Shown piece after piece: positions 1 to 37,021 of a stretch of DNA of 37,021 bases. The notes beneath the pieces were generated by a model, which ran no database searches, was not told the DNA's origin, and saw nothing but the letters and a program-made list of their open reading frames with translations. The position numbers were made by a program, and so were the translations under genes. Within the stretch, counting starts at the first letter, position 1. Each line of letters begins with the position of its first letter. The stretch is taken from positions 1 through 37,021 of the forward strand of contig JAKAVV010000024.1 of the NCBI GenBank assembly GCA_021817145.1, read 5' to 3'. The DNA comes from a bacterium (GTDB taxonomy: Bacteria > Vulcanimicrobiota > JABDET01).

Positions 1-1
1 A

Positions 2-241
2 AAAATGATGGATATGCTGGCTGTTCATGATTCTGAAGGGATTTTAAAACTTGATAAGGATTTTATTGAAAAGATTGGAGAGTGCGGATATCGCCCTATT
101 CTCATCATGCTGGGAGCGACTCAGGGGTTGGCTCTGCAGAGAGAAGTTATTTCTTATGAGGGGCCTTTTGGGGTTGGTTATGGAGTTGTAACTTACCAGA
201 CCATTAAAAAGGAAATGGAGGCGCATTATGGACAGGCCTAA
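2..241 (+). CDS. C-terminal fragment of LigB/MEMO-like AmmeMemoRadiSam protein (5' truncated)
   Basis: The reading frame is open to the left edge, so only the last 80 or so residues are visible and the true start lies outside. The visible part carries the GECGYRPILIMLGA and YEGPFGVGYGVV blocks. I recognise these from the end of the class III extradiol dioxygenase (LigB)-like domain of the AmmeMemoRadiSam system, a relative of human MEMO1. In many bacteria this domain is fused in front of the AMMECR1 domain. Here it ends with its own stop and overlaps the AMMECR1 gene by 14 bases, so the two are separate, probably translationally coupled proteins. The radical SAM partner is not in the window and may lie upstream. 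The molecular function of the system is unsettled. Confidence 0.75.
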   Translation, partial: KMMDMLAVHDSEGILKLDKDFIEKIGECGYRPILIMLGATQGLALQREVISYEGPFGVGYGVVTYQTIKKEMEAHYGQA

Positions 242-1330: not shown

Positions 1331-1353
1331 GATAAATTGAAAATGCAAAAGCA

Positions 1354-2427: not shown

Positions 2428-2455
2428 AAGTTAATGAAGCAGCATAAAAATTGAG

Positions 2456-3469
2456 ATGAAAAAAACGCAGTTAGTCATTTTGTTCATGCTGTTTTTCTTG
2501 TTCTGCTGCATGTTTGCCGCTTCTTATTTCGCGCGTGATTTTTTTGTGCCGATGTCTTTTAAAAGAAATGAGATTCAGGTGGTTGTTCAAGAAGGTTCAA
2601 CAGCACCGGAGATTGGGAGGGAGTTGAAGAAAAAAGGATTGATTCGCTCTTCTTTCTCTTTTCGCCTCTTGTCCTTATTGACCGGCACAGGGAAGGAAAT
2701 AAAAGCAGGAACTTATCGTTTCACCCCTTCTATGAGCGAGTATGAAATTTTAAAAAAATTGGTTTCTGGGAAAAGCATTCTCGTAAAAATTACGATTCCC
2801 GAAGGGTTTAATTTAAGGCAGATCTCCGATCTTTTAAGTAAAAAGGGGGTTGCGCCCAAAGAAAAATTTTTAGAAACTTCTCGAAAAACGACTTTTTATA
2901 TACCGCAGCTTCATGAAAAGATTTCAGGGCTGGAGGGATTTCTATTTCCTGACACTTATTTTCTTTCTCCCGGTATGACCCCTGAGGAAGCATACAACCC
3001 AATGATTCAAGAATTTGAGAAGCTGGTTGTTCCGTTATACGAGAAAGCTCATCCGGATTTGAGCTTAAGAAAGATTATTATCTTGGCTTCTTTAATTGAG
3101 AAGGAAGCCAAAATTGAGAAGGATCGCCCTTTAATTTCTGCTGTTTATTATAATCGTTTAAAAAAAGGGATGCCTCTGCAGTGTGATTCAACCATTGAAT
3201 ATTTGCTGCCAAAAATAACGGCTCATTTAACAGCAAAAGATCTGCGCATTAAATCCCCTTATAATACTTATTTACATACAGGGCTTCCTCCAGGACCTAT
3301 TGCAAACCCCGGAATCCTCTCCATTAAAGCAGCCCTTTATCCCGCTCATGTTCCTTATCTCTATTATGTGGCAAATGGGAAAGGAGGGCATCGTTTCAGC
3401 GCTACCTACAGAGAACAGCTGCATAATATTCAGCTGTACGATCACTGGCTGAGGTCAAAGACACAGTAA
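2456..3469 (+). CDS. mltG: Endolytic murein transglycosylase MltG
   Basis: A 337-residue single-pass inner-membrane protein. Residues 4-25 form the membrane anchor and are followed by a LysM-like subdomain (EGSTAPEIGRELKKKGLI). The YceG catalytic domain carries EGFLFPDTYF, ASLIEKEAK with the predicted catalytic Glu215, YYNRLKKGMPLQCDSTIEY and SPYNTYLHTGLPPGPIANPG. All family hallmarks are intact. MltG cleaves nascent glycan strands near the membrane and sets strand length, so its place just behind mreB makes sense. The spacing to mreB (28 bases) and to the HAD gene (13 bases) suggests one transcript. Confidence 0.95.
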   Translation: MKKTQLVILFMLFFLFCCMFAASYFARDFFVPMSFKRNEIQVVVQEGSTAPEIGRELKKKGLIRSSFSFRLLSLLTGTGKEIKAGTYRFTPSMSEYEILKKLVSGKSILVKITIPEGFNLRQISDLLSKKGVAPKEKFLETSRKTTFYIPQLHEKISGLEGFLFPDTYFLSPGMTPEEAYNPMIQEFEKLVVPLYEKAHPDLSLRKIIILASLIEKEAKIEKDRPLISAVYYNRLKKGMPLQCDSTIEYLLPKITAHLTAKDLRIKSPYNTYLHTGLPPGPIANPGILSIKAALYPAHVPYLYYVANGKGGHRFSATYREQLHNIQLYDHWLRSKTQ

Positions 3470-3482
3470 TGAGCTGCTATCC

Positions 3483-4040
3483 ATGAAGATGAAATCTCTT
3501 TCGGAGATGATTTATCAATGGATCTGCTATCTTTGTCCAGATGTTTATGTTGGATCTATTTTCGATATTGATTTAGAAGAGCTAAAAAAAAATGGGTTTT
3601 CAGGAATTATTTTAGATTTAGATAATACTCTGGTTAAGCCTAAATCTCGGGAAGTTTCCCAAGAAGTGATGGATTGGCTTAAAAACATGGAGCAGTTGGA
3701 ATATAAAAGATGCCTTGTTTCGAACAGCCTGCTGAAACGAGTCCAGATTTTTTCTGATAAATTTGGGATTCCTTTTATTTCAAGGGCAGCCAAACCTAGA
3801 AAAAAGGTATTCTGGCAGGCTTTAAATAAGCTTGGGACAAAACCTGAACAAACCATTATGATCGGAGACCAGTTGTTTACCGATATTTTAGGAGGAAAGA
3901 GGATAGGATTATTTACTATCCTTGTTTCTCCTTTAGACAAACAAGAGTTGTGGACAACATCTTTAATTCGGTATCCTGAAAAGCTAATTTTAAAATGGTT
4001 GAGAAATCGAGGGCTTTTAAAACCGCTTGATGTAAAATGA
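3483..4040 (+). CDS. YqeG-family HAD IIIA phosphatase
   Basis: A 185-residue cytoplasmic HAD-superfamily hydrolase. Motif I is LDLDNTL with Asp45 (nucleophile) and Asp47. Motif II lies in CLVSNS, the motif III Lys in AAKPRKKVF, and motif IV is MIGDQLFTDILGGKRIG. This order and spacing match the YqeG/YGGS-type family; yeast Gep4, a phosphatidylglycerophosphate phosphatase, is a distant relative. A role in phosphatidylglycerophosphate dephosphorylation is possible but not shown by sequence. It is the last gene of the first plus-strand block and ends 11 bases from the convergent thyX stop. A second ATG two codons in is an equally good start. Confidence 0.85.
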   Translation: MKMKSLSEMIYQWICYLCPDVYVGSIFDIDLEELKKNGFSGIILDLDNTLVKPKSREVSQEVMDWLKNMEQLEYKRCLVSNSLLKRVQIFSDKFGIPFISRAAKPRKKVFWQALNKLGTKPEQTIMIGDQLFTDILGGKRIGLFTILVSPLDKQELWTTSLIRYPEKLILKWLRNRGLLKPLDVK

Positions 4041-4051
4041 CCTGTTTTTTC

Positions 4052-4885
4052 TCACTGGAGTTTTTCCAGAAATTCTCTCCATTCCCCTTTGCTCAACCCT
4101 GCTGCTTCCAGGTTTTCCCCAAAAGATTCCAATTTTTCTCGATCTATGGTTTTCTCTAGGATTCCCCATTCCTGTTTTGAAAATCGTTTCCCTTGCAAGA
4201 CATACTCTTCAAATGCTTCCCAAGTAATGGGGAGTCTTTCTTTTAAAATATCGGCAGTAGCAAATCCATAAGCTCGGATTTCTGCCTGAGCATGAGAGTC
4301 CATTCTGAGCTCCAGAAAATGCATCAGGTTATGCAGATTGATGCTCCAGTAAAATTCAGTATATAAATTTACTGGTAGAAAGATTCGGATGAGTTCTCTT
4401 GCCAATCCTAGATCATTAAGAGAAGTATAACATGCATATGCTTTTTTGCAGATTTCATCCAGATTATTTTGGAAGGTTTTCTGGAAATCTTCAGGAACAG
4501 GTTCTGCGCTGGACCCCTGACGGTTTCCTTTACTCTGGAATTGAATTCTGGTTTCTTCAGGAAAATAAAATTCATCTCGCGCTTCACTGTATCGTAAACT
4601 GTATTCATTATAGGAAGCTGCTCTATGTCTCATCCACTGCCTTGCCACAAAAATAGGGGCTTTAATGTGCCATTTGGTTTGCACCATTTCAAAGGGTGTG
4701 GTATGGCGGTGGCGGATTAAATATCGGATCAATCCCCGATCTTCGCGGAGAGTTTTTGTTCCTTTTCCGTAACTGACTCTGGCTGCTTGAACAATAGAGC
4801 TGTCATCCCCCATCATATCCACTAAATGAACAAACCCTTGATCTAAAACCTTTTTTTCCCTGATCTTTTCCATTTCTTCTAACAT
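4052..4885 (-). CDS. thyX: Flavin-dependent thymidylate synthase ThyX
   Basis: A 277-residue cytoplasmic enzyme that makes dTMP from dUMP using FAD, NADPH and methylene-tetrahydrofolate. The ThyX signature RHRxxSxNxxSxRY is complete at residues 86-99 (RHRAASYNEYSLRY), with Arg/His dUMP- and FAD-binding residues in place. The upstream block RHRHTTPFEMVQTKWHIKAP is also typical. A strong AGGAGG lies seven bases before the ATG. No thyA is visible, so this is plausibly the only thymidylate synthase. The gene sits 111 bases downstream of trpS on the same strand; I see no convincing promoter in that gap, which is AT-rich. Confidence 0.96.
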   Translation of the reverse strand: MLEEMEKIREKKVLDQGFVHLVDMMGDDSSIVQAARVSYGKGTKTLREDRGLIRYLIRHRHTTPFEMVQTKWHIKAPIFVARQWMRHRAASYNEYSLRYSEARDEFYFPEETRIQFQSKGNRQGSSAEPVPEDFQKTFQNNLDEICKKAYACYTSLNDLGLARELIRIFLPVNLYTEFYWSINLHNLMHFLELRMDSHAQAEIRAYGFATADILKERLPITWEAFEEYVLQGKRFSKQEWGILEKTIDREKLESFGENLEAAGLSKGEWREFLEKLQ

Positions 4886-4996
4886 ATTTTATCCTCCTGT
4901 TCTATTTTTTTTACTCGAAAAGAAGAACATTTTCTTTTTTGGCACTGAACTCTACTCTGAATAAATGAATTCTTTTCATATTTCTCACAATACTTT

Positions 4997-6136
4997 TCAT
5001 AATGGCAAGAGGCGCATCGACCTTTTTGCTTCAGTTAGAGTTTTCTGGGCGGTTATCCTCGCTTTTTCAGCTCCATCTTTTAAAATTTTGGTGATTCTAT
5101 TCGGATCTTTTGAAAGAGTCTCTCTGGCTTCTCGAATAGGAGCCAGTTTGGAGATTAAGGAATTGGAAAGGTTTTTTTTGCATTCTACACAGCCAAGAGA
5201 GCCGTTTTTACAGTTTTTCTCTGTTTCAGACACAAGAGGTTCTGGAGAGAAAAAACGGTGGTAAAAAAAGATATTGCAAATTTCAGGTCTGCCTGGATCT
5301 CCTTTGTGAATTTTTTGCGGATCTGTAATGGTCTGCTTCACTTTTTTTTGTATCTCTTCAGGCGGATCTGAAATGAAAATGCCGTTGCTGTAAGATTTAC
5401 TCATTTTCCTCCCATCAATTCCAGGCACAAAAGGGGCTTCACTTAACAAACTTTCTGGTTCAGGGAAGAGATTTTTTTTGAAAATGAAATGAAATCTTCG
5501 AACGATTTCTCTCGCAAGCTCCAGATGGGGGAGCTGGTCTTGTCCAACAGGGACAACTTCCCCTTTAACAGCTAAGATATCGGCTGTTTGCAGCAGAGGG
5601 TAACCGAGAAAGCCGTACGTTGCGAGATATTCCATTTCCGATCTTTTTGCCGCTTCTTCGCGAAGGGAATGTTGTTGAATGTACTCGCCTGATTTATTTA
5701 AAAAATCCGCCTGATCGATTAGTGTACTGTCGGAGCCTTCTTTATCTGGGATATGAACTTTTTGAGCCATTCTTTGTTTCAACAGTTCCTGCAGCTGGTC
5801 TTTGTAAGTGGGAACTCTTTCCAGCCATGCTGTTGGGACAATCATGCTTAAAAGGAGATGAAGTTCTGCAATTTGAGGAATATGACTCTGAACATAGATC
5901 GTGGATTTATCAGGATTAATGCCGCAGGAAAGCCAGTCCAGGAGCATTTCTCGGATATTATCAGGGATTTCTTCTGTTTGACGGTACCCTGTTGTTAAAG
6001 CGTGCCAGTCCACAATGGAGTAAAAGCAGTCGTACTCATCCTGGAGTTTTTTCCAGTTTCCAAGGGCTCCGAGGTAATGGCCGATATGCAGTTTTCCTGT
6101 AGGCCTCATTCCACTCATCAATCTCTTTTTAGGCAT
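4997..6136 (-). CDS. trpS: Tryptophanyl-tRNA synthetase
   Basis: A 379-residue class I aminoacyl-tRNA synthetase that charges tRNA-Trp. The HIGH motif is at residues 17-20 (GKLHIGHYLG) and KMSKS at 244-248. The IVDWHALTT, ERVPTYKDQ and GYPLLQTADIL blocks confirm Trp rather than Tyr. It is longer than the usual 320-350 residues. The extra length sits between VPTYKDQ (about 113) and the GFLGYPLLQTADIL block (about 175), where a charged segment of some 45 residues is inserted. The ribosome-binding site AGGAG is six bases before the ATG. The gene follows the DHH/CCA-enzyme gene by 22 bases, so two tRNA-related genes are linked. Confidence 0.95.
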   Translation of the reverse strand: MPKKRLMSGMRPTGKLHIGHYLGALGNWKKLQDEYDCFYSIVDWHALTTGYRQTEEIPDNIREMLLDWLSCGINPDKSTIYVQSHIPQIAELHLLLSMIVPTAWLERVPTYKDQLQELLKQRMAQKVHIPDKEGSDSTLIDQADFLNKSGEYIQQHSLREEAAKRSEMEYLATYGFLGYPLLQTADILAVKGEVVPVGQDQLPHLELAREIVRRFHFIFKKNLFPEPESLLSEAPFVPGIDGRKMSKSYSNGIFISDPPEEIQKKVKQTITDPQKIHKGDPGRPEICNIFFYHRFFSPEPLVSETEKNCKNGSLGCVECKKNLSNSLISKLAPIREARETLSKDPNRITKILKDGAEKARITAQKTLTEAKRSMRLLPL

Positions 6137-6158
6137 GAACCGCTCCTCTCAAAAAAAA

Positions 6159-8426
6159 TTATGATAAACTTCTTCTTAAAAACTCTAAAGCCTGTTCACG
6201 AGTTTGGAGGTTTCCATCCAGCTGCTCTTTTTTTACCTTTTCGAACCACTCTCTATAAACAGGACCTGGCTTGAGCCCAATCTTCTTTAAATCCTCTCCT
6301 GATATCAATAATTTTGCGTTTTTGTATTTCAGCAGATACTGTTCTAACCTTTCTTTTAAAAATGGATTTTTTGAATAAGCCATAAAAAACAAAATTCCTT
6401 CCAAAGAAATTCCTTGCATTTTTTTTGAAATTTCACTTGGTTCCATTGGATCAGAATGGGAAAGTTCATGAATTAATAAATGCCAGTTGGTTTTCATGAA
6501 GCCCACTTTTTGCGAGGCTTTGAGAGTAAATCTGTATTTTATCAAGAGTTCTTCAATTTCAGAGGAGGTTAGTTCTGAGAAGAGAGCAAGGGCATAAACA
6601 ATCCATGGGTCAAATTTTTCTCCTTGAAGTTTTTCAGTATAATGGGTGAAAGTCTCAGGGATTTGTTCTAGTAGTTGAAGAGTGGTTCCTGAAAGTTTTA
6701 AAGAAGGGTGAAGCAGCTGCAGAATTTTCAGTTTTCCCATCCGTTGGATCGCAGGGGCAGGATTTTTTTCGGAAAGCAGAAGGATCATCTCATTTCTTAT
6801 TCTGTCCGATGAAAGTTTTAAGATTACTTTTGACTGAACCCCTTCTTTCAGGAGTTTCTCTGTATGAGGATCCATTCGGAATCCGTATCTCTGTTCATAT
6901 CGGACTGCTCTAAAAATTCGCGTTGGATCATCGGAAAAACTGGAATTATGGAGAACTCTAATCATTCCATGCTGTAAATCCCGCTGTCCTCCAAAAAAAT
7001 CAATTAATTTTCCAAAATCATTGGGGTTCAGCTTTACAGCCATGGCGTTTATGGTAAAATCTCTTCGCGTCAAATCTTGTTTAAGGGTGGTTCCAACGAC
7101 TTCGGGTAAAGCTGCTGGACGAGCATAAGATTCTGCTCTTGCTGCCGCCAGATCAATTCTAAGGCGATCAGGCAGGATTAAAACCGCGGTTTTAAAGGGC
7201 TCATGAATTTTTAGATGGGCATTAAAAGTCTCAGCCAATTTTTTTGAAAAAGAAATACTATCCCCTTCAACCACCAAATCCAGATCTAAGTTTTTAATTC
7301 CAAGCAGAAGATCTCGGACAAATCCCCCTGCTGCAAAAAGATTGAGATTTTGTTCAGCGGCGATTTCTCCAGTTTTTTTTAATAACTTGAGAATCTCCTC
7401 TGGAACTTTTCTCCAATCTTCTATTTTAAGGGTGACTGTCAGGATCGGTTTTTGTAAATTTTGCGGCGTATTCTGCGTCATTAAACTTGGTTTTATCTTT
7501 TGTTTTAAAACATGAATAAGCTTTTCCTCTACTTTTTCAAGGTTTTCTCCTTTTAATGATGCCGAAGCAGCGGTTTGATGTCCTCCCCCCCCAAACTCTT
7601 CGCAAATTTCAGAGACATCAATCGCCGACAAGGTTGATCTGCCAATTAAAAAGATCTTTTTCTGCATCTGGATAAGAGAAAAGACAGCGTGAACTTTTTC
7701 TAAATCTAAAATGCGCTGTGTCAATAACGAGACATCGCTTGTGTAATAAGGAATAGAAGCTTTTGTAATAAGAATTTCATGTCCTTCAATTTGAGAGAAG
7801 CTGCCAGATAGAATCAGCTCTTTTAACAGATCTCTCTGCAGAGGTGAGAGGGGGCGATTGAGAATATCGCTGACAATTTTTAAGTCCCCTCCTTTTTCTA
7901 ACAGCCATGCAGCAGCATTTAAATCAGCTGGGGTTGTTGTTGGAAAAGACAAAGAGCCTGTGTCAACATAAATTCCAGTTAAAAAAAGGGTTGCTTCATA
8001 AGTGGCAATTGGTAGATTTTTTTCTCGGATTAATTCCATTAGAATCGTTGTGGTTGAGCCAGCCTGTTTTATATAATTGTAATCCCCAACAATGTCTCTA
8101 TAGGTTGTTGGATGATGATCGTAAACATGAATCTCCACTCCTTGCTTTTCAGTCAATTCGCGAAGATCACCAAGTCTTCGGGCTTCTCTGGTATCTACAA
8201 TAATTAGCTTTTTGACCTTTTCTAAAGGGATTTCTTTTGTTTGATAAATGTGCAGCCACCCCCCATGGAGGGTTATAAATTCTTGGACACTGCTGTCCGG
8301 GGAATCAGGGAAAACCAGTTTTGCCGCAGGGTAAAGTTTATTCGCTGCTGCCATGGCTGCCAATGAGTCCATATCTGCATTGGAATGTGAAACAATCAGT
8401 TCGCTAAACTCTTGTATCTCACTCAT
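6159..8426 (-). CDS. DHH/DHHA1 phosphoesterase fused to tRNA nucleotidyltransferase (CCA-adding or A-adding enzyme)
   Basis: A 755-residue fusion. The N-terminal part is an NrnA-like DHH phosphoesterase: SHSNADMDSLAA near residue 13, DTREARRLGD near 78, DHH at 103-105, and the DHHA1 motif FGGGGHQTAAS at 278-288. From about residue 365 comes a class II poly(A)-polymerase-type nucleotidyltransferase head with GGFVRD at 367-371, the catalytic pair in NLDLDLV (Asp381, Asp383), RRDFTINAMA at 454-463 and DDPTRIFRAVRYEQRYGF near 499. A helical tail completes it. Related fusions such as those of Thermotoga carry two CBS domains between the halves. Here only about 60 residues separate them and no CBS pair is visible. 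Roles inferred: tRNA 3'-end synthesis plus nanoRNA or pAp turnover. Confidence 0.93.
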   Translation of the reverse strand: MSEIQEFSELIVSHSNADMDSLAAMAAANKLYPAAKLVFPDSPDSSVQEFITLHGGWLHIYQTKEIPLEKVKKLIIVDTREARRLGDLRELTEKQGVEIHVYDHHPTTYRDIVGDYNYIKQAGSTTTILMELIREKNLPIATYEATLFLTGIYVDTGSLSFPTTTPADLNAAAWLLEKGGDLKIVSDILNRPLSPLQRDLLKELILSGSFSQIEGHEILITKASIPYYTSDVSLLTQRILDLEKVHAVFSLIQMQKKIFLIGRSTLSAIDVSEICEEFGGGGHQTAASASLKGENLEKVEEKLIHVLKQKIKPSLMTQNTPQNLQKPILTVTLKIEDWRKVPEEILKLLKKTGEIAAEQNLNLFAAGGFVRDLLLGIKNLDLDLVVEGDSISFSKKLAETFNAHLKIHEPFKTAVLILPDRLRIDLAAARAESYARPAALPEVVGTTLKQDLTRRDFTINAMAVKLNPNDFGKLIDFFGGQRDLQHGMIRVLHNSSFSDDPTRIFRAVRYEQRYGFRMDPHTEKLLKEGVQSKVILKLSSDRIRNEMILLLSEKNPAPAIQRMGKLKILQLLHPSLKLSGTTLQLLEQIPETFTHYTEKLQGEKFDPWIVYALALFSELTSSEIEELLIKYRFTLKASQKVGFMKTNWHLLIHELSHSDPMEPSEISKKMQGISLEGILFFMAYSKNPFLKERLEQYLLKYKNAKLLISGEDLKKIGLKPGPVYREWFEKVKKEQLDGNLQTREQALEFLRRSLS

Positions 8427-8433
8427 ATCTCTG

Positions 8434-8583
8434 GAAAGCGCCTTCGGCGCTTTTGTTCATTCGTTCGTCTGCCGCTTGCGAGCAGCGGCGATCTCTCTCA
8501 TTTCGCATGAAAGCGCCTTCGGCGCTTTTGTTCATTCGTTCGTCTGCCGCTTGCGAGCAGCGGCGATCTCTCTCATTTCGCAT
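8434..8583. repeat. Two perfect 75-bp tandem repeats with internal palindromes (REP/MITE-like)
   Basis: Units 8434-8508 and 8509-8583 are identical over all 75 bases. Each begins with a perfect 8-bp inverted repeat with a three-base loop (AAAGCGCC, then TTC, then GGCGCTTT), followed on the plus strand by T-rich sequence. Each holds a second stem, GCCGCT paired with AGCGGC around a seven-base loop. The units are clearly richer in G+C than the surrounding DNA. They fill the gap between the HDOD gene and the DHH/CCA gene, and the second unit ends on the first base of the HDOD stop codon. The 75-bp period keeps a minus-strand frame open as a 25-residue repeat (MRNERDRRCSQAADER...), most likely a by-product. 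Confidence 0.9.
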
Positions 8584-9494
8584 TAAGGCTCTTTTATTCC
8601 TGATTCCAAAGAAGTAAAAATAGCATCCGTTTGTTTGATGGTCTCTTTTGCTCTTGTTACTATGTCTTGAAATTTTCCCTGAGTAAGTCCTAGAGGGATT
8701 AAGTAGTTTTCTTTTACCCACTCTTCAGGTTTTTTGTCAAGATAAGGATTGATGTTGTTGATAGAAGGGTAACCAAGCGCCCAGCTGAGAAGATCTGCTG
8801 CATAGACAATTTGCGAAAGGACCTCTTCGGGTTTTGTTAGATTTCCGGTTCTTGGAGCATGATGTCCCCAAACGACATGATAAATTACTTCAGGGAGTTT
8901 CCAATACACAACCGCTAAACCCCCTATTTCAGCATGGCTGATCCCAAACAGCTCTTTTTCAGCCTGCCATGGGGATATTTTCCCTTTATGATCAATGTAA
9001 TTTTGCTGCGCTTTTGAAAAAGCGGCTGGATTGGAATAACTTAAAATGATCTTTCCGATATCATGCAGAAGTCCGACTGTAAAAGCCTCACCGCTTAAAC
9101 TCCCTATTGAACGCGCGATGAGTTCCGATATCTTCCCGCAGAGGAGTGAGTGTTTCCAGAGGCGAATGAAATCTCTTTCTTGCTTTTTCCCTGTTTTTTC
9201 TAAAATCGAGACATTTAAAATAATATCTCTGACTTGTTCAAAACCGAGGTAAGTAATGGCATGAGATAAATCTAAAATCTTCTGTCTGAGCCCAAAAGCA
9301 GGGGAGTTTACAATGGTCAAAACACGGGTAGAAATAGCAGAATCCAGCTTGATGACTTGAGATAAGTCTTTTGAAGTAGATGCAGGCTTTTCAATAAGAC
9401 TTAAAAGATAGATGACAACTTGTCGAAGGGTTTTTAATTGAACTTCCCCTCCTACAATTTTATAAAAAGAGTCCCATGCTTTCTGCTGTTCCAT
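8583..9494 (-). CDS. HDOD-domain protein
   Basis: A 303-residue soluble protein made almost entirely of one HDOD domain. Visible blocks are SKDLSQVIKLDSAISTRVLTIVNSPAFGL (from residue 41, a typical HDOD opening), ITYLGFEQVRDIIL, and GLLHDIGKIIL with a real His-Asp pair at 144-145. Then come GISHAEIGGLA and WGHHAPRT. HDOD proteins are relatives of HD phosphohydrolases and usually serve as non-enzymatic signalling or scaffold modules. Here several metal-ligand-like His/Asp residues persist, so activity is not excluded. No receiver, GGDEF or EAL domain is attached. No strong ribosome-binding site precedes the ATG. The stop codon touches the 75-bp repeat. Confidence 0.9.
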   Translation of the reverse strand: MEQQKAWDSFYKIVGGEVQLKTLRQVVIYLLSLIEKPASTSKDLSQVIKLDSAISTRVLTIVNSPAFGLRQKILDLSHAITYLGFEQVRDIILNVSILEKTGKKQERDFIRLWKHSLLCGKISELIARSIGSLSGEAFTVGLLHDIGKIILSYSNPAAFSKAQQNYIDHKGKISPWQAEKELFGISHAEIGGLAVVYWKLPEVIYHVVWGHHAPRTGNLTKPEEVLSQIVYAADLLSWALGYPSINNINPYLDKKPEEWVKENYLIPLGLTQGKFQDIVTRAKETIKQTDAIFTSLESGIKEP

Positions 9495-9526
9495 TAGCGC
9501 TTTTTAATTGTATTGGATGAGATGGT

Positions 9527-9790
9527 TTAATATTCCTGGAAATACGGGTCTTCATTGAAATGCATGGATCGGAGTCTTTCATTCTTTTCTGTGGAAAGTT
9601 TTACAAATTTGGCAGATTTGTGATCTTTAAGGGATGGATCTTCTCCATCAATTCTAAAATCCTTTAAAGACTCTTCCTGCCACACATATTTCCCAACATC
9701 CCTTAAAGTTTCCTGGGGATCCAGAATATGGAGGATTCCATTGGCATCTTTTAAAATAAGAACTCCATTTTTATGAAATCCAATCTCCAC
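9527..9790 (-). CDS. Small conserved-looking hypothetical protein (87 aa, GTG start)
   Basis: I do not recognise this protein. A longer frame extends up into wzz, but the likely start is the GTG at 9790-9788: an AGGAGG lies at 9805-9800, nine bases before it and just after the wzz stop. From there the product is 87 residues. It has a short beta-rich opening (VEIGFHKNGVLILKDANGILHIL) and a charged, aromatic C-terminus ending DPYFQEY. There is no signal peptide or membrane helix, so it is presumably cytoplasmic. Its position directly behind wzz and before the HDOD gene suggests co-expression with the export genes. No function is proposed. Confidence 0.6.
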   Translation of the reverse strand: MEIGFHKNGVLILKDANGILHILDPQETLRDVGKYVWQEESLKDFRIDGEDPSLKDHKSAKFVKLSTEKNERLRSMHFNEDPYFQEY

Positions 9791-9821
9791 TCGAGTTATC
9801 CTCCTGATGTTATCTTTGTTT

Positions 9822-11234
9822 TCACTTTTTAACCGATTCCAAAACAGGTTCCTGCATTTTTCCGTTTTCTTCAACAGGAAGCTGCTGGAGAACAGGAGGT
9901 TTAAAAGATTCCACAAAAAAGGCTGCTCCTATTCCCAGAAATCCACCTAAAAGGATTCCAATCGCTAAATCCAGGAGCCTGTGGGGTCCGCTTGGAAGCT
10001 CAGGGATAGAGGCTTTATCTAATACCTGGATATCCGGTTTCTCTTTTTCCTCCTGGATAACCGCTTTTTCGTAATCGGTTGAAAGAAAAGCGTCAAGAGC
10101 TTCCATTACTTTTAAGTTTCGCTCTAGTCTTAAATAATGCAGCCCAATTGTCGGATAAGTTTTGAATTTTTGATCCAGGGTTTGAATTCCAATGATCGCA
10201 GCCGCTTTTTTTGCTTTTAATTCCGCAAGTTTGATTTCTGGTAAAAGGAGAGAATTAGCGGTTCCTGTTTGAGCTGCTCTCATCTGTCTTTTAAGCTGTT
10301 TCTGCAGGGTGCGCTCTAAATTTTGCAATTCCCATTTATCGGACTTTAGCTGAGGATTTTGGGGGGTTTCTACAGCTTTGTCCTGGGCGTATTTGACATA
10401 AGCTCTGGCTAATTCTTGTCTAAGGTTCACCACTACAGGATCCCTTAAATCTGGCCCAACAAGAGGATGCTGGACACTGGAACTGTAATGGGTCAAAAGA
10501 ATCTTTTTGGCGCCAGCTAAACTAGTTTCAGCGGTTTGAATCCCCATTATATCAGCCAATTCTTTAACTTTCAAGGTGATCAAAGCATCCATGTAAAGTT
10601 TTGCTTCTGCCGTAAAATCAGCGGTTTTATAATGAGCTTGAAATTGGACCATTGCTTTTTCTGCCTGATGCAGCTTTTTCTTCAATTTAAGGAGCTGTTT
10701 TTGCACATCCCGCCTGTGTTTTTGAGCTACGCTGAAAGTAGCCCCTGAAGTGTACTCTTTAAAGGCATTGACATAATCATTTGCAAGATTTGCAGAAAGC
10801 TTTGGGTTCTCAGTCGTGGTTGAAATCACCATAATCCCTTCTTTGGTCATACGAATACTGCTGGATTTTCTCAGATCGTTCCTGGCAATCTGCCAGTATT
10901 GGGTGTGGTAATATTGTAAAAGATTGTATTTTCGAATTAACTTATCCGCAATGGTTCTGCTTTCCAGGATTCCTTTTGTATAATTCTGCAGGCTTGGTCC
11001 AGAAAGAAAAGAACCGGCTAAACTTGCTAAACCTCCTAATTTTCCTAATATTTGAGAAGTAGAAGAGCCGCTTGTTAAAGGGTAATAAAAGCTTGTTTTG
11101 GCCGTGTATTGATTATGCGCTAAAAGGAGATAAATAAGCGCTAAAAAGACAACGCCTCCCATGATTTTGAAGATCAGGCTTTTTCGTTTTTTTATAATTG
11201 TCCAGTAGTCGTAAAGAGAAACTTCATTTTCCAT
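9822..11234 (-). CDS. Wzz/GumC-type polysaccharide chain-length determinant protein
   Basis: A 470-residue inner-membrane protein of the polysaccharide co-polymerase family. The opening EVSLYDYWTIIKKRKSLIF precedes the first membrane helix (about residues 21-40). A long periplasmic helical region follows. The proline-rich ASIPELPSGPHR motif leads into the second helix LAIGILLGGFLGIGAAFF (about 423-442). No C-terminal Walker or tyrosine-kinase domain is attached, so it is not a Wzc-type BY-kinase. It likely controls polymer length and works with the SLBB export protein encoded 34 bases upstream. The ribosome-binding site AAGGA lies about ten bases before the ATG. Confidence 0.9.
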   Translation of the reverse strand: MENEVSLYDYWTIIKKRKSLIFKIMGGVVFLALIYLLLAHNQYTAKTSFYYPLTSGSSTSQILGKLGGLASLAGSFLSGPSLQNYTKGILESRTIADKLIRKYNLLQYYHTQYWQIARNDLRKSSSIRMTKEGIMVISTTTENPKLSANLANDYVNAFKEYTSGATFSVAQKHRRDVQKQLLKLKKKLHQAEKAMVQFQAHYKTADFTAEAKLYMDALITLKVKELADIMGIQTAETSLAGAKKILLTHYSSSVQHPLVGPDLRDPVVVNLRQELARAYVKYAQDKAVETPQNPQLKSDKWELQNLERTLQKQLKRQMRAAQTGTANSLLLPEIKLAELKAKKAAAIIGIQTLDQKFKTYPTIGLHYLRLERNLKVMEALDAFLSTDYEKAVIQEEKEKPDIQVLDKASIPELPSGPHRLLDLAIGILLGGFLGIGAAFFVESFKPPVLQQLPVEENGKMQEPVLESVKK

Positions 11235-11268
11235 TTTACTTATTTCCTTATCTTAAATTTAAGCTAAT

Positions 11269-12873
11269 TTACGGGAAAAGCGCCTTGAGAAAGTAAAGAT
11301 TCGTGAAAATTCCCAGAATATCTGAAATCGTCTTAAATTGATTTCTAGGAACAAAAATCACGTCTCCTGCTTCCAAAAGCGGGCTCTTCGATATTTTGCC
11401 TCCTGTCAATTCAGCGTGAAGATTGACATTCATAACATCGGGTTTTGCAGCTCCTGAAATAACCCGCACCACCTTAACGCTGGATAAAACTCCATGCACA
11501 GTTGCTCCTCCTGCTAAAGTCACGTATTCTTTAATCCCATCTCCTGGAATATAAGGAAAAACTCCAGGTTTACGAACAGCTCCCAGCACATAAATGCTGT
11601 TTGGGGAAGGTGGAACAACAAGGGTATCCCCGTCTCTTAATTTGATGTTTTGAGATTGGTCATTATCGGCAAACAGTTTTTGAAGATTTAAATGAAGGAT
11701 CGTTTTTGTTCCATTTGGATTTTTTCGTTCAACCCAGGCATGGGCTGGATCAGCCATTGGAGTAAACCCCCCTAAATTCAAAATGACATCTTTTACCTTT
11801 TCATTTCGGTGTAACACATACCATTTCATTCCGACTGGTTGAACAATAGATTTTCCTAATTTGGAGCTGGAATTTTGAATGTCAGCAAGCTCTCCAATCA
11901 CTTTAATTTTTTGCTGAAACAAACTGATAGGAGGAACATAAATTGAATCTCCGTTTTTTAAAGCAAGAAGCGGAGTAACAGACAGATTGATTTCTTGATG
12001 GTCAGGCAGAATACGGGAGAGTTTTGTCTGGTTTATCTCTGCTTGAGGAGAATATCCACCCGCCATTTTCAGTAAATCTTTGTAAGTTTCTCCGGGAAGG
12101 ATTTCGTAGGTCCCAGGCCTTTTGATGTTCCCTGAAATGGAAACAACGGATTTAATTGTGGGAACATAGATGGTCTCATTGGGCTCAATATAAGGGTTTT
12201 GTCTGGTATCTCCAAACATTTTCCATTTAAAATAATCTAGGGTTTGCAAAATTTTACCCTTCTTTTTTACTTCAATCTGCCGAAGGGAACCAACAGGAGT
12301 TAATCCTCCTGCTGCTTTAATGGTATTTAATGCGCCGGCTGTCCCGGGAAGGGTATATTCCCCTGGTTTATTGACATTTCCCAGAACTTCCACTGTTATG
12401 GTGCGGACCCCAGTTAAATTGGCTTCCACTTTAATCTGTTTGTAATCTTGTTTTAAAACTTTTTCGAGATAGCTTGAAAGTCTGCTTAATAAAACCCCTT
12501 TGACTGGAATATCTCCGACTGACCCTAAATCAATGGTCCCCAGCGGTGAAACAGAAGTGACAACTTTGGAGTAAGCAGGGGTCCATAATTGCAAAGAAAG
12601 CACATCTCCCGGATATAAGGAATAGAGATTGGGGTTAACAGCGGAAAGAGAGCTTGATATTTGAGCAGGCACATTGTTTTTAGTATAATTTTGCAAAGTT
12701 TGCAAAGGGGTTCCTTGAGGATAAGCATTTTGATAGGGGGAGAAAGATCTGCTGTAAACTCCCCCTGATTTCCCTGATAAAATCTGCGCTGCTCCTTGAG
12801 CATGACAAATCGCAGCAGAAAAGAGCAGAAAGGAAACTAGAAGCAGAAGATTTGTTCTTATTATCTTAGTCAT
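11269..12873 (-). CDS. SLBB-domain polysaccharide export protein (Wza-like)
   Basis: A protein of about 534 residues with an N-terminal signal sequence (MTKIIRTNLLLLVSFLLFSA, then an AICHAQ cleavage region). It is followed by a polysaccharide export domain (LYPGDVLSLQLW) and several SLBB repeats with the recurring pattern of G-N-V-x-x-P-G-x-Y, as in VLGNVNKPGEYTLPG and ISGNIKRPGTYEILPG, plus later copies such as VLGAVRKPGVFPYIPG. It should form the periplasmic and outer-membrane channel for exported polysaccharide. The residue set around Cys does not make a clear lipobox. A TTG at 12885 could extend it by four residues; I prefer the ATG at 12873. Neither start has a well-spaced ribosome-binding site. 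Confidence 0.92.
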   Translation of the reverse strand: MTKIIRTNLLLLVSFLLFSAAICHAQGAAQILSGKSGGVYSRSFSPYQNAYPQGTPLQTLQNYTKNNVPAQISSSLSAVNPNLYSLYPGDVLSLQLWTPAYSKVVTSVSPLGTIDLGSVGDIPVKGVLLSRLSSYLEKVLKQDYKQIKVEANLTGVRTITVEVLGNVNKPGEYTLPGTAGALNTIKAAGGLTPVGSLRQIEVKKKGKILQTLDYFKWKMFGDTRQNPYIEPNETIYVPTIKSVVSISGNIKRPGTYEILPGETYKDLLKMAGGYSPQAEINQTKLSRILPDHQEINLSVTPLLALKNGDSIYVPPISLFQQKIKVIGELADIQNSSSKLGKSIVQPVGMKWYVLHRNEKVKDVILNLGGFTPMADPAHAWVERKNPNGTKTILHLNLQKLFADNDQSQNIKLRDGDTLVVPPSPNSIYVLGAVRKPGVFPYIPGDGIKEYVTLAGGATVHGVLSSVKVVRVISGAAKPDVMNVNLHAELTGGKISKSPLLEAGDVIFVPRNQFKTISDILGIFTNLYFLKALFP

Positions 12874-12921
12874 GGCAGATACCAATTTCGAAAAAAACGA
12901 GAATTCTCCTTCAAATTCCTT

Positions 12922-13377
12922 TTAACGTTTGAAAAGGATGGCGATCATTAGAGAAATCCAACCTAAAAATCCAGTGCCCACCATCCATTTCTGCCAGTTT
13001 AAAAATAGTTTGAACTGTTCTCTCATCTCCTGGTGGTTCTGATTAAATTTGTTATTCATGTCTTGCTGTATCTGGTTAAATTTATCGTTCATCTCCTGGT
13101 GGTTCTGATTAAATTTGTTATTCATGTCTTGCTGCATCTGGTTAAACTTGTCGTTCATCTCTTGATGATGTTGGTTAAATTTATCGCTCATTTCCTGATG
13201 AAGTTGGTCAAACTTGTCGTTCATCTCTTGACGTATCCATTTTATTTCCTGATTATTCTGGTTAAACCGATCCCTTATCTCCTGATAAAGTTGATTTAAC
13301 TTTTCTCGAATAAACTGCAGTGACTGCTCTAAAAGCGAAACTCTGTCGGGTAAATCTTGCGGACTTGGAATTGCCAT
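12922..13377 (-). CDS. Hendecad-repeat coiled-coil protein with C-terminal membrane anchor
   Basis: A 151-residue protein. After an N-terminal segment (residues 1-32) it contains 11-residue repeats of the type EMNDKFNQxxQ: one at 33-43, a seven-residue interruption (EIKWIRQ), then six or seven in a row from 51 to about 127. A single membrane helix follows (about 131-148), ending in LFKR. Hendecads form right-handed coiled coils, so this is likely a rod tethered to the membrane by its tail. The layout recalls Borrelia Bdr proteins and unnamed bacterial families, but no function can be assigned. AGGAGG lies eight bases before the ATG. It is the first gene of the minus-strand export run. Confidence 0.8.
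   Translation of the reverse strand: MAIPSPQDLPDRVSLLEQSLQFIREKLNQLYQEIRDRFNQNNQEIKWIRQEMNDKFDQLHQEMSDKFNQHHQEMNDKFNQMQQDMNNKFNQNHQEMNDKFNQIQQDMNNKFNQNHQEMREQFKLFLNWQKWMVGTGFLGWISLMIAILFKR
13024..13155. repeat. 66-bp tandem duplication inside the coiled-coil gene
   Basis: Positions 13024-13089 and 13090-13155 match at 63 of 66 bases, and all three differences are transitions. Each copy encodes two hendecads. The flanking 33-bp units are more diverged, so this pair looks like the newest expansion of the array and preserves the reading frame. Confidence 0.85.
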
Positions 13378-31671: not shown

Positions 31672-33475
31672 AAAAACTCACTCTTGCGGTGAGCTTTCTT
31701 TAAAAAATAAAGGAGAAACCATTGTTCTCCAGGGATGGGTCCAAAGCCGCCGGGATTTAGGGGGGCTTATTTTTATTGATCTCAGAGATAGAGAAGGGAT
31801 CACTCAAATTGTTTTTAATCCTCAAGTTTCCTCTGATGCTCATAAAAAAGCCCAGGAATTGTCACGCGAATATGTTGTATCAGTAAAAGGGAAAGTTTCA
31901 GAACGTTCTCCTGAAACTAAAAATTTTAAATTTATCACTCAGGAAATAAAAACAGGAGAGATTGAAATTCTCTGCGATGAACTTGAGATTTTGAACCCGT
32001 GTATTTCGAATTTCCCTATTTCTCGTCTGGACGAAGAAGGTGAAAGGTTTCTTCCAGGGGAGGATATGAGATTAAAGTACCGCTATCTGGATCTTCGCAG
32101 AAAAAAAATGTTTGAAAATTTAAAGTTAAGGCACAAAGTCGTAAAAGGGATTCGAGATTTTCTAGATCAAGAGGGATTTTTAGAAGTAGAAACCCCTATG
32201 CTGATCAGAACTACGCCTGAAGGGGCAAGGGATTATCTTGTCCCTTCTAGACTGCATCCAGGAAAATTTTACGCTCTGCCGCAGTCCCCTCAGTTGTTCA
32301 AGCAGCTGCTGATGGTGGCAGGATTTGAGAAGTATTTCCAAATTGCCCGATGCATGAGAGACGAAGATTTAAGGTCAGACCGTCAGCCCGAGTTTACGCA
32401 GTTGGATTTAGAAATGTCTTTTATTACACGAGAGGATATCTTTTCCGTTATTGAACGTTTATTTCATTATGTTTTTAAAACCATCTTGAATCAGGATCTT
32501 CCTGTTCCCTTTCCAAGATTAACGTATGCTGATGCCATGCGGAAGTACGGGACAGACAAACCGGATTTAAGATTTGATCTGCAGATTCAGGATTTTACGG
32601 ACTGTTTTTATAAAACTGGTTTTAAAATCTATGAGGATATCACTGCTTCAAAAGGGGTCATTCAAGGGATTCACTTGAAAAATGGAGCGCAGGAGTTTTC
32701 TTCTCGAAGCAAGCTCGATCAGCTCCTTGAGCAGTGGAAACTTCAGGGGATCAAGGATATGACTTATCTTTCATGGACAGGGAGCAGAGAATTCCGCTCT
32801 CCGATCGGCAAACATTTGGGGGATGGTGAGAAAGAGAAACTCGGTGAAAAACTTAATCCTGGCGAAGGAGATATCACTTTTATTTTATCAGGTGATCCTG
32901 AACGTACTCTTGAGTCTCTTGGGAAACTGAGATTAGAACTGGCTGCTCGGCTCAAATTGGTTTCCAAAGAAGAGAAGAAATTCCATTTTTCTTGGGTGTT
33001 GGATTTCCCCATGTTTTTTTGGAATGAAGAAGAGAAAAGGCTGGATCCAGCTCATCATCCTTTTACTTCTCCCCTTCCTGAAGATATTGGACTCCTGGAT
33101 TCCAATCCTTTGCAGTGCAGAGCAAATGCTTATGATCTGGTATTAAATGGCTGTGAAATTGCCAGCGGAAGCATCCGAATTCATCAAAGACCACTTCAGG
33201 AAAAGATTTTCAATTTGATTGGATTATCTCAAGAAGAGGCAGATGCAAAGTTTGGGTTTTTATTGAAAGCGTTTGAGTACGGGGCTCCTCCTCATGGGGG
33301 GATCGCTCCAGGAATTGATCGCCTGGTTATGCTCCTGGCAGGAGCTGATTCGATTCGAGAAGTGATCGCTTTTCCTAAAAATCAATCTGCTCAAGATCTA
33401 ATGCTTGGATCTCCTGTTGAAGTGCCTGAAAAGCAGCTGAAAGAGCTCTCTTTAAAGGTTGAAATTTCGAACTAG
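31640..33475 (+). CDS. aspS: Aspartyl-tRNA synthetase
   Basis: A bacterial-type class IIb synthetase of about 611 residues. The anticodon-binding domain (THSCGEL, VLQGWVQSRRDLGGLIFIDLRDREG), the catalytic core (LPQSPQLFKQLLMVAGF, FQIARCMRDEDLRSDRQPEF as motif 2), a GAD insertion and the C-terminal GIAPGIDRLVMLLAG as motif 3 are complete. The frame extends to 31601, but the ATG at 31640 fits family starts better. It overlaps the TolB-like gene by 32 bases and has no ribosome-binding site. The RRDLGG segment has Leu where non-discriminating enzymes often have His, which hints at a tRNA-Asp-specific enzyme; this is inference. Confidence 0.95.
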   Translation: MIEIRSGSIFKKTHSCGELSLKNKGETIVLQGWVQSRRDLGGLIFIDLRDREGITQIVFNPQVSSDAHKKAQELSREYVVSVKGKVSERSPETKNFKFITQEIKTGEIEILCDELEILNPCISNFPISRLDEEGERFLPGEDMRLKYRYLDLRRKKMFENLKLRHKVVKGIRDFLDQEGFLEVETPMLIRTTPEGARDYLVPSRLHPGKFYALPQSPQLFKQLLMVAGFEKYFQIARCMRDEDLRSDRQPEFTQLDLEMSFITREDIFSVIERLFHYVFKTILNQDLPVPFPRLTYADAMRKYGTDKPDLRFDLQIQDFTDCFYKTGFKIYEDITASKGVIQGIHLKNGAQEFSSRSKLDQLLEQWKLQGIKDMTYLSWTGSREFRSPIGKHLGDGEKEKLGEKLNPGEGDITFILSGDPERTLESLGKLRLELAARLKLVSKEEKKFHFSWVLDFPMFFWNEEEKRLDPAHHPFTSPLPEDIGLLDSNPLQCRANAYDLVLNGCEIASGSIRIHQRPLQEKIFNLIGLSQEEADAKFGFLLKAFEYGAPPHGGIAPGIDRLVMLLAGADSIREVIAFPKNQSAQDLMLGSPVEVPEKQLKELSLKVEISN

Positions 33476-33527
33476 AGGGTTCCCTCCTTTATTTACATAT
33501 TTATTTACCAGGGGGAGGTCCTCCAAA

Positions 33528-34505
33528 ATGAAAAAAGTAATTTTATTGGCTGCAGTAATTTTTTCTTTCAGCTTAAATGTTTTTGGTCAGGGATTTGGGA
33601 GAGGGGTTCCACTCCCTGTTTGCCCTGGAGGAAATCAAATCCATATCAATATTATACCTAATATTGGATTTAACCCCAAAAACATAACCTTTAAGTATGC
33701 TTACACTATTGCCAGTTTTCCTGACAGCAAACAAAATGTTTGGTCTTTCACTTTAGAGTATTTAACTTCCTTAATCTCCTTTAAAAGTACCTTCAACAAA
33801 AATGCAGGAGGCCCAGTGGTATGGGATAATCATCTTGTTTTTATACACCCACGCCCTGCTGATCCGAGTGATTTATCACTCCCTGAAAATATTATTGGTT
33901 GGTATTCTGTCTATTCAAGCGAAGATATTTCCCCGGGAAATTCTTTATCTGGTTTTTTTGTTACTACCACCGCTCTTCCAGGCATAGTTCGCAGTTGGAC
34001 ACAAGGGGATCATCCTCTTCCATCAGTCCCAGAAAGCGCTGCTCAAGCCACTTGTGGTCCACCTGACCCTTATTCATCCGATGACAATGTCATTCTCAAA
34101 ACTGTTGGTCCTGACATCCTTCCCAAAAACTTAACTCCAGTGCAGCTTTTAACTCGGTTAATCAGCTTAAAAGAGCAGGCATTCCAGTTAGGCTGGATTA
34201 CCAATGCAGGGGTGGCCAACAGTCTGGATGCTAAATTAAATGAAGCGAAGAAAAAGCTGCAGGAAGGGGAAACCCAAGTAACCATCAATCTTCTGAAATC
34301 ATTTATTTTAGATCTGGAAGCCCAGCATCAAAAAGAAGAACCGGAAAATGAAGAAGGGCAGAAACAGGAACAGGAAAAAGAGGAGGAGCAGAGTCATAAA
34401 CATGTAACAGATAACGCCTATTATTTGCTTAAACCCAACGCCGAATTTATTTTATTAAAACTGAAAGAACAAGAAGAGCAGAACCAAAAAGAGGGTGAAA
34501 AATAG
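33528..34505 (+). CDS. Secreted FIMAH-domain protein
   Basis: A 325-residue exported protein. The signal peptide MKKVILLAAVIFSFSLNVFG begins at the ATG at 33528, nine bases after GGAGG; an upstream in-frame start within aspS is unlikely. Residues 25-200 form a beta-type domain that I cannot name, with two Cys (PVCPGG and ATCGPP) likely to pair. From about 205 to the end it has the FIMAH helical repeat pattern: LLTRLISLKEQAFQLGWITN, AGVANSLDAKLNEAKKKLQEG, LLKSFILDLEAQH, NAYYLLKPNAEFIL. A Glu/Gln/Lys-rich stretch (about 266-292) interrupts that domain. FIMAH domains occur at the ends of secreted proteins and may mediate binding. A paralogue lies at 36157. Confidence 0.85.
   Translation: MKKVILLAAVIFSFSLNVFGQGFGRGVPLPVCPGGNQIHINIIPNIGFNPKNITFKYAYTIASFPDSKQNVWSFTLEYLTSLISFKSTFNKNAGGPVVWDNHLVFIHPRPADPSDLSLPENIIGWYSVYSSEDISPGNSLSGFFVTTTALPGIVRSWTQGDHPLPSVPESAAQATCGPPDPYSSDDNVILKTVGPDILPKNLTPVQLLTRLISLKEQAFQLGWITNAGVANSLDAKLNEAKKKLQEGETQVTINLLKSFILDLEAQHQKEEPENEEGQKQEQEKEEEQSHKHVTDNAYYLLKPNAEFILLKLKEQEEQNQKEGEK
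34308..34434. repeat. 127-bp exact repeat, internal copy
   Basis: These 127 bases, covering the charged insert and the adjoining FIMAH helix of the first FIMAH gene, are identical to 36895-37021, the last bases of the window. The base before each copy differs (T at 34307, A at 36894). Sequence further upstream is related but clearly diverged. Confidence 0.97.
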
Positions 34506-34564
34506 CCGCGAATTTTCCAGCCAAAATTCAGGGGGCATCACTTTATTGAGAACCCTGCTGCTGC

Positions 34565-34619
34565 CCAAAAGAACGAGGACACCCTTCCAAAAGAACGATA
34601 CCAAAATCCTCCTTTTGGT
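34565..34619. promoter_or_regulatory. Array of CCAAAA boxes upstream of the peptidase promoter
   Basis: CCAAAAGAACGA occurs at 34565-34576 and again at 34587-34598, a spacing of 22 bases (about two helical turns). A third ACCAAAA at 34600-34606 is mirrored by TTTTGGT at 34613-34619 around TCCTCC. The array ends three bases before the candidate -35 box, a position suited to an activator or repressor. The mirrored part could also form a weak hairpin. Confidence 0.4.
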
Positions 34620-34622
34620 CAG

Positions 34623-34653
34623 TTGAAATGGGGGGGGGGTAATGTGGTATCAT
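34623..34653 (+). promoter_or_regulatory. Promoter-like element with a ten-G spacer tract (candidate phase-variable promoter)
   Basis: TTGAAA at 34623-34628 and TATCAT at 34648-34653 each match the sigma-70 consensus at five of six positions. They are 19 bases apart. Ten consecutive G residues (34630-34639) lie within the spacer, so loss of two would give the ideal 17. A start near 34660 would leave a leader of about 65 bases to the peptidase ATG at 34726. The longest homopolymer in intergenic DNA here is this one. Confidence 0.5.
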
Positions 34654-34725
34654 CAGAATTAACACTTCACGGATGAAATTTTTCTCTCATGGAATGACAT
34701 TTCTTTTTGAAAGGGGATGGTGTTC

Positions 34726-36144
34726 ATGGGTCGAAGGTTTTTCTGGGTGATTGTTGTGGGTTTGATCCTTTTGTTTGATAATGTTCCAATTCAAGCGTTT
34801 TCTCAATCTTCACTCCCAGTTATTATCTCTGTTCCAAGTATTGTGAATGGGTTTAGAGCAAAACTCACAGCTTCTGTTACTATCACAGGAAACAAAGTTT
34901 ATTGGGTTAGTTTTCAGCCGAGCTGGTTGAGTTGGTTTACTTTAAACACGAATCCATCTTATCTTGATAACAATCTCCGATTATCCGGCATCTTCCAAGA
35001 TTACTATTTTTCCCCTGGGGCAGCGGTCTCGATGACCTATGAATCCACAGGGGCGTCAAGCAGCTGCGGACCTCACTATATTTCCGTTTGGATTGGATAT
35101 ATTGGGAAATATGGTCCTGCTTCAGATATTGTTAACATGCCTTTTACAGAGGAGTGTCCACCACCATCTCCTCCTCCACCACCACCACCTTCCAATATCT
35201 CAATTACTGTGTCTCCGAATGCGCTCTATCCGTCTGGGTTAGGGCTGCAGCCAACCACCTCTCAAATCCACGTCTCTGTTACCAATGCTGATGGGAGCGC
35301 AGCGACTGCAGCGCAGAACCTGCTTTTTACGGTGTCAGTCCCGCCTGATCATCACACTCAATTAAGCCTTGAAAACCGAGGTGGTCATGCGAACTCTGGA
35401 TCCCGACCCTTGGGGATATTTCAGGGTAAAAACCCTCAGGATTATCATCTGGCGGTTGGAGATCAAAATAATGAATATCAATTTCAAGATACCACGGATT
35501 CTAATGGAAATCTGGATTTAACTTATACTTCACCCGCTGCAGGAGGGGTTATTTTAATTCAAGTCTCCCTTCTTCACGACAGCAGCGGCGCCTTCGATCC
35601 TGCCCCTTCTGCAGTGATTATTGGGAATGGAACAGCTTCAGCAGGGATTGATGTGAGAGTTCCTGGGCTTGTGCATTTGCCCGATGATCCAGACCTTTAT
35701 ACAAAAGATGGAGGCACGATTTATCATCCAGGACCCTGCCTTCCCAAATTTGCATCCTCTTGGGAAAAATGCGATCCAAACACTGATTATACGGAAGGGT
35801 ATCCCAATATTGACATCAATCATTATGGGAACCCCCTGTTTATGGATAAAATTGTGGCAATTACTCAAGAGTTTAAAGCGGTGTTTCCAAGTGAGACTGT
35901 TCTCCTCAATGACATGAGTCTTCCTCTTGGAGGAGTATTCGATATTAATGGGGATTGGGAACCTCCTCATTTAGACCATCAGGAAGGGGAAGCTGTAGAT
36001 TACAATCTGCTGTATTTCCCTCTGGGGTTTAACTCTACTTCTGTTGAAGCTGAAAGACTTGCATGGTTTATTAGAAGAAAACACTTAAATATTCATGTGG
36101 AGGGGGATCACTGGCACATTCAAATGAAACCTGGTCAATTTTAA
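34726..36144 (+). CDS. Secreted zinc peptidase of LAS/M15-like type with proline-rich linker
   Basis: A 472-residue exported protein. The start at 34726 lies nine bases after AGGGG and opens a signal peptide (MGRRFFWVIVVGLILLFDNV); an ATG at 34717 is too close to that site. Residues 30-145 form a beta domain with two Cys. A proline-rich linker (about 145-158) leads to an invasin/Ig-like domain (ISITVSPNALYP to about 310). The C-terminal domain has the LAS metallopeptidase pattern HxxxxxxD (His418, Asp425 in DHQEGEAVD) and HxH (His462, His464 in GDHWHIQM). It probably cleaves peptidoglycan cross-bridges or stem peptides. Overall similarity to M15 is otherwise weak. It lies between two FIMAH genes. 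Confidence 0.78.
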   Translation: MGRRFFWVIVVGLILLFDNVPIQAFSQSSLPVIISVPSIVNGFRAKLTASVTITGNKVYWVSFQPSWLSWFTLNTNPSYLDNNLRLSGIFQDYYFSPGAAVSMTYESTGASSSCGPHYISVWIGYIGKYGPASDIVNMPFTEECPPPSPPPPPPPSNISITVSPNALYPSGLGLQPTTSQIHVSVTNADGSAATAAQNLLFTVSVPPDHHTQLSLENRGGHANSGSRPLGIFQGKNPQDYHLAVGDQNNEYQFQDTTDSNGNLDLTYTSPAAGGVILIQVSLLHDSSGAFDPAPSAVIIGNGTASAGIDVRVPGLVHLPDDPDLYTKDGGTIYHPGPCLPKFASSWEKCDPNTDYTEGYPNIDINHYGNPLFMDKIVAITQEFKAVFPSETVLLNDMSLPLGGVFDINGDWEPPHLDHQEGEAVDYNLLYFPLGFNSTSVEAERLAWFIRRKHLNIHVEGDHWHIQMKPGQF

Positions 36145-36156
36145 GGGGTGAGAAAA

Positions 36157-37021
36157 ATGTTTAGAAAAATTTTTGTTGGGGCAGTTGTATTCCTCTTGAT
36201 ATGGGGATTTAAACAGGTAAAAGGGCAGCAGTGCATGCAAGATGCCAATAAAGTGGATGTGGTGATAAAACCCAGAGTAGTTTTCAATCCCAAACATGCT
36301 TCTTTTCAATACAACTACACCCTTTACAGCAAACCAGACAGTATCCAAAATGTACACAGCTTTGATTTAGAAGTTCCCAATTTTCCCGCGCTCCCTTATA
36401 AAATTGGAGGATGGGATTTCTCAAATGCAACTAGTGTTGGAGGGGGGCGTCATTCCATGGCGCCTGCTAACGATGCGGGTTGGATTGCAGATCGAGAAAG
36501 CGATGACATCTTTCCTGGGGAGACTCGTAAAGGACTCTTTTTAAAATCCCTTGGGCTTCCAGGGATTGTGAGAAGTTGGAGTCAAGGAGATGTTCCATTC
36601 CCTCCTTCTGTTCCAGATGTGAATCCTGCTTTAACCGCTAAATGTCCGGATCAAGGGTATTCTCCTCAAATGAATGAAATTCAAAAAACTGTTGGATCCG
36701 ATCTCTTCCCTGTCAATATCACAAATCTCCAGCTTGTGGAGCGGTTAATCCACTTAAAAGAGCAGGCATTTCAATTAGGCTGGATTACTAACAAAGGGGT
36801 GGCGAACAGTCTGGATAAAAAGCTGGAGGAAGTGAAGAAAAAGATAAAAGAAGGGCATCTTCAAACAGCGGGAAATATTCTGCGGTCATTTGTATTAGAT
36901 CTGGAAGCCCAGCATCAAAAAGAAGAACCGGAAAATGAAGAAGGGCAGAAACAGGAACAGGAAAAAGAGGAGGAGCAGAGTCATAAACATGTAACAGATA
37001 ACGCCTATTATTTGCTTAAAC
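36157..37021 (+). CDS. Second secreted FIMAH-domain protein (3' truncated by window end)
   Basis: The frame opens at the ATG at 36157, eight bases after AAGGGG and 12 bases after the peptidase stop, and stays open to the edge (288 codons). A signal-like N-terminus (MFRKIFVGAVVFLLIWGF, then a likely cut near VKG) precedes a domain homologous to the first FIMAH protein. Shared blocks include FNPK, PGIVRSW(S/T)QGD, a matching Cys pair, KTVG and LKEQAFQLGWITN. The last 127 bases are identical to the first copy. The missing end should hold the rest of the FIMAH domain. It is probably co-transcribed with the peptidase. Confidence 0.85.
   Translation, partial: MFRKIFVGAVVFLLIWGFKQVKGQQCMQDANKVDVVIKPRVVFNPKHASFQYNYTLYSKPDSIQNVHSFDLEVPNFPALPYKIGGWDFSNATSVGGGRHSMAPANDAGWIADRESDDIFPGETRKGLFLKSLGLPGIVRSWSQGDVPFPPSVPDVNPALTAKCPDQGYSPQMNEIQKTVGSDLFPVNITNLQLVERLIHLKEQAFQLGWITNKGVANSLDKKLEEVKKKIKEGHLQTAGNILRSFVLDLEAQHQKEEPENEEGQKQEQEKEEEQSHKHVTDNAYYLLK
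36895..37021. repeat. 127-bp exact repeat, copy at the window edge
   Basis: Identical to 34308-34434 over every base up to the last one present. Because the match stops only where the sequence stops, the real repeat may be longer than 127 bp. Confidence 0.97.

Follow-up and report, generated by a model that had tools for sequence, protein, structure and literature searches.

A contig end at an exact 127-base repeat inside a cluster of repeated FIMAH-type genes

The right end of the window (the whole stretch of DNA analysed here, 37,021 bases) is an ordinary assembly artefact inside an unusual repeated gene cluster, and we are highly confident that it represents a contig end of a short-read de Bruijn graph with k = 127, of the SPAdes type. 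The window is the entire contig C9 (37,021 of 37,021 bases) of a 2.66-Mb genome in 42 contigs rated 97% complete, and the window end is the true contig end. An earlier note had read this end as a probable assembly-graph break at a repeat, and the parent record has no continuation past 37021. The last 127 bases are an exact copy of an interior segment (Table 1), the repeated suffix is 127 bases at its longest and the first mismatch (T at 34307, A at 36894) stands directly outside the identity, which bears out the clean single-base edge the note had described. In the 153 bases to the left of the block, the two genes that contain it, A1 and A2, differ at 40 positions. A chance origin of so long an exact match in 37 kb can be neglected, and the two copies are paralogous gene segments; a search of both strands of the window found no third exact copy. 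Of the two edges of the block, only the left is a real sequence boundary. The position of the right one comes from k, and the true repeat may therefore run further to the right.

Table 1. Features at the right end of contig C9 (positions are those of the window)
Feature	Position	Strand	Basis or context
Terminal 127-base k-mer (probable graph vertex)	36895..37021	+	Inside second FIMAH gene A2, at contig end
Interior copy of the terminal 127-mer	34308..34434	+	Inside first FIMAH gene A1
A1, FIMAH-type secreted-protein gene, 325 aa, complete	33528..34505	+	Pfam FIMAH E 1.4e-4, 22.8 bits
A2, second FIMAH-type gene, cut by contig end	36148..37021	+	Paralogues
B1, secreted protein, 475 aa, C-terminal HxxGxAxD ... 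HWH metallopeptidase-like motif	34717..36144	+	LAS type, such as M15/M74
Spacer with G10 tract (34630-34639) and conserved leader	34506..34716	+	Sequence comparison
Part of the block on C9, absent between aspS and the atp operon in sister G001	33461..37021	+	Collinearity lost after 33460

The value of k is evident from the contig ends of the genome as a whole. Both ends of all 42 contigs were compared with the other ends, with contigs C8 and C9 and with part of contig C30 for the longest exact match, most other contig interiors being covered by a BLAST-type search and not by exact 127-mers. The longest match was exactly 127 bases at 54 of the 84 ends, shorter at 11, absent at 19 and longer at none. 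Because chance or ordinary repeats would yield mixed match lengths, the graph k of the assembly is 127, the role the earlier note had given to this number. End sequences of length maxK are left at repeat breaks by metaSPAdes and MEGAHIT (PMC10914622), and the end overlaps exploited by COBRA (Chen and Banfield 2024, PMC10914622) share exactly maxK bases in the same manner. Unlike those overlaps, the k-mer shared here lies inside the contig's own interior and not at the end of another contig, and an end-to-end overlap tool would therefore miss the join beyond C9. The earlier note had proposed a search for the same 127-mer at the ends of other contigs. Among the contigs checked, the sequence was absent from the other contig ends, from the interior of C8 and from the C30 piece, and the sole other site found for it is the interior of C9. 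The left ends of C24 and C27 and the right end of C23 resemble the end of C9 in that the 127-mer at which each stops lies in a contig's interior.

The left end of C9 overlaps contig C31 by 127 bases. This was the one overlap join examined for adjacency, and it is a true adjacency in the sister genome G001, where the two contigs match collinear segments (C28:70787-72239 and 69338-70912, both on the minus strand) that overlap by 126 bases. The G001 assembly has a break of its own in this gene family, with the ends of its contigs C28 and C14 sharing a tail of exactly 127 bases inside a B gene. The title of the G001 record has the NODE_..._length_..._cov_ form, which we take to be SPAdes style, and an assembler of the SPAdes type was probably used here.

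The break would have arisen because the paralogues A1 and A2 are identical over 127 bases or more, so that both paths enter one graph vertex. The A1 path would have been carried on, and the A2 path would have halted at the vertex, keeping its 127 bases. Judged from paralogous 3' ends, A2 has about 71 more bases to its stop codon, in agreement with the earlier proposal that the second FIMAH gene continues elsewhere, and its protein is 97% identical to that of the complete copy A4 on C8. After C9, the chromosome would complete A2, pass through a poly-G spacer and proceed into C8 read in reverse, which would start within that spacer, ahead of the next metallopeptidase-like gene.

The sister genome provides the framework for this order. 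In G001, aspS (C18:79576-81375) and atpB (C18:77951-78760) share a strand and are separated by 815 bases, measured between the gene ends at 78760 and 79576. The G001 sequence follows C9 as far as 33460 and, after a further 60 bases, C8 reversed from base 12904. The chromosome almost certainly runs on into another contig of this genome, in the order C9 (+), a short gap and C8 (-), a join that rests on synteny and paralogous layout and not on a k-mer overlap. At the right end of C8, none of the sequences compared gives a 127-base overlap, for which drop-out at a G-rich tract would be an explanation. Reversed C8 (C8rc) opens within the poly-G spacer that stands ahead of each B gene, and its bases 5-151 match C9 34630-34776 at 92% identity. 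The gap would be about 190 bases (191 or 188 from the A1-B1 and A5-B4 junctions), or about 1.4 kb should one more A gene follow A2, as A5 follows A4. The whole block (C9 33461-37021, the gap and C8rc 1-12903) extends over at least 16.5 kb and is absent from that G001 site. As a consequence of the break, aspS and the ATP-synthase (atp) operon seem unlinked in the contigs of this genome, yet they are linked.

The block holds six FIMAH-type genes (A1-A6), four B genes (B1-B4), a B remnant and pilin-like genes. The A proteins score 20.4-23.0 bits against Pfam FIMAH (PF22888), just under the curated cut-off of 24.8 bits, with A6 the best (23.0 bits, E 1.2e-4). The C-terminal helical region of A1 matches positions 13-62 of the 81 in the profile, and the A1-A5 type differs from it in carrying a Glu/Gln/Lys-rich insert, which is encoded by the 127-base repeat. 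A literature search for FIMAH returned matches only to fimA/fimH of E. coli. Within the 127-base block, A1 has 0, 1, 4 and 5 differences to A2, A5, A4 and A3, respectively. Directly to the left (34155-34307), it resembles A6 of C8 with 4 differences in 157 positions, compared to 39-41 in 153 for A2-A5. Based on this pattern A1 is a mosaic of two array types that cross over at 34308, where the 127-base identity starts, and the left edge of the block is thus a real crossover; the identical stretch probably arose when members of the array recombined or underwent gene conversion. A chimeric, misassembled A1 with its crossover at this edge was considered. The gene is nonetheless judged to be real, because every 128-mer across the crossover should have been present in the graph, an argument weakened by the practice of SPAdes-type assemblers of passing contigs from smaller k forward. 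On C30 there is a further A fragment with an in-frame stop, near transposase-like genes.

According to the earlier note, the join after 34434 depended on repeat resolution. The doubt is smaller than feared. The A5-B4 junction on C8 (A, spacer, B start) has the layout of A1-B1 and matches 34092-34758 at 89% over 667 bases, and with the A1 and A2 exits swapped the 2587-base B1-A2 unit would need to be a closed circle or tandem loop; the join is mostly safe. A loop would be produced if the B1-A2 unit were tandemly repeated and its identical copies collapsed, with the path re-entering its own start as a lasso. The sole other site found for the terminal 127-mer, also on C9 and 2587 bases before the terminal one, has the shape expected of such a collapse, but an array must exit somewhere and synteny offers a simple exit to C8. 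Further, beyond the shared block the observed copies diverge by at least several percent, and A1 upstream of the 127 bases is not a copy of B1-A2, and we regard this explanation as improbable. Similarly, it is unlikely that the branch reflects strain variation, in which some cells of a mixed population lack the B1-A2 unit through recombination between the 127-base direct repeats. Recombination can take place between direct repeats that are 127 bases or longer and lie 2587 bases apart, and A1 is itself a mosaic, but the sequence examined has no sign of a second haplotype and the repeat alone suffices to break the graph. A genuine molecule end, as in a linear replicon with terminal repeats, has nothing in its favour except the contig stop and is so improbable as to be negligible, since C9 breaks off within a gene, the repeat is an internal, direct one, the other end of C9 joins C31 collinearly with the sister genome and the length 127 recurs across the assembly.

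The B genes of the block resemble the LAS metallopeptidases (M15 D-Ala-D-Ala carboxypeptidase and M74 murein endopeptidase) in the zinc-ligand pattern HxxGxAxD, HxH shared by B1-B3. In an alignment of four B proteins (B1, B2, B3 and one G001 copy), HxxGxAxD followed by HWH is invariant and in this order. Unlike LAS enzymes, the B proteins have no Pfam, NCBIfam or PDB sequence match above threshold (B3 and B4 reach 15.4 and 16.1 bits against Pfam Peptidase_M74, cut-off 25), and the motif residues seem to be missing from B4 and from the copy on C14 of G001. B4, on reversed C8, and the C14 copy may be inactive forms beside active ones. An AlphaFold prediction of the B1 C-terminus, made without an alignment, had a mean pLDDT of 37, too low for use of the fold. 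The pilin-like genes of the block match the GspK, PilV and GspI models at their N-termini, in every case below cut-off.

Five copies of the conserved leader were found, one ahead of each of B1-B4 and one ahead of a B remnant. Its G tract is 10 bases long before B1, interrupted (5+5) at C8rc 1-14, and 8, 7 and 7 bases long at C8rc 5292, ~8206 and ~12577, and is flanked by hexamers similar to -35 and -10 boxes. The tract is a possible slippage switch. Repeats of other kinds are present elsewhere in the window: 33-base units (~6.5 copies) at 13023-13237 in the reverse-strand ORF 12922-13377, and a 75-base tandem repeat (2.2 copies, 94% matches) at 8416-8583, between or overlapping short reverse-strand ORFs.

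The A family was identified in only 2 of the 38 genomes searched, this one and the sister G001. All family copies found in this genome are located on C8, C9 and C30, and a search for relatives of the array in a collection of genome contigs found none. In G001, the A/B/pilin family is present at another site (C28:455966-456866 and C14:2311-2871), adjoining genes whose orthologues lie near the C30 fragment of this genome, but on their other side, which suggests that the array has relocated. The interest of the site is mild and lies in the array, the end of the contig being ordinary. The gene counts at the edge of C9 are wrong through assembly and not through biology: A2 is cut by the contig end and is no truncated gene. 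Short reads will undercount the copy number of the family. We put forward, as a speculative proposal, that the break lies in an array confined to the genus, in which secreted FIMAH-type, metallopeptidase-like and pilin-like genes recombine and which occupies a different site in each sister species; slippage in the poly-G tract of the leader could turn B genes on and off, and gene conversion would shuffle the copies. The assembly breaks in two related genomes mark one fast-changing gene family.
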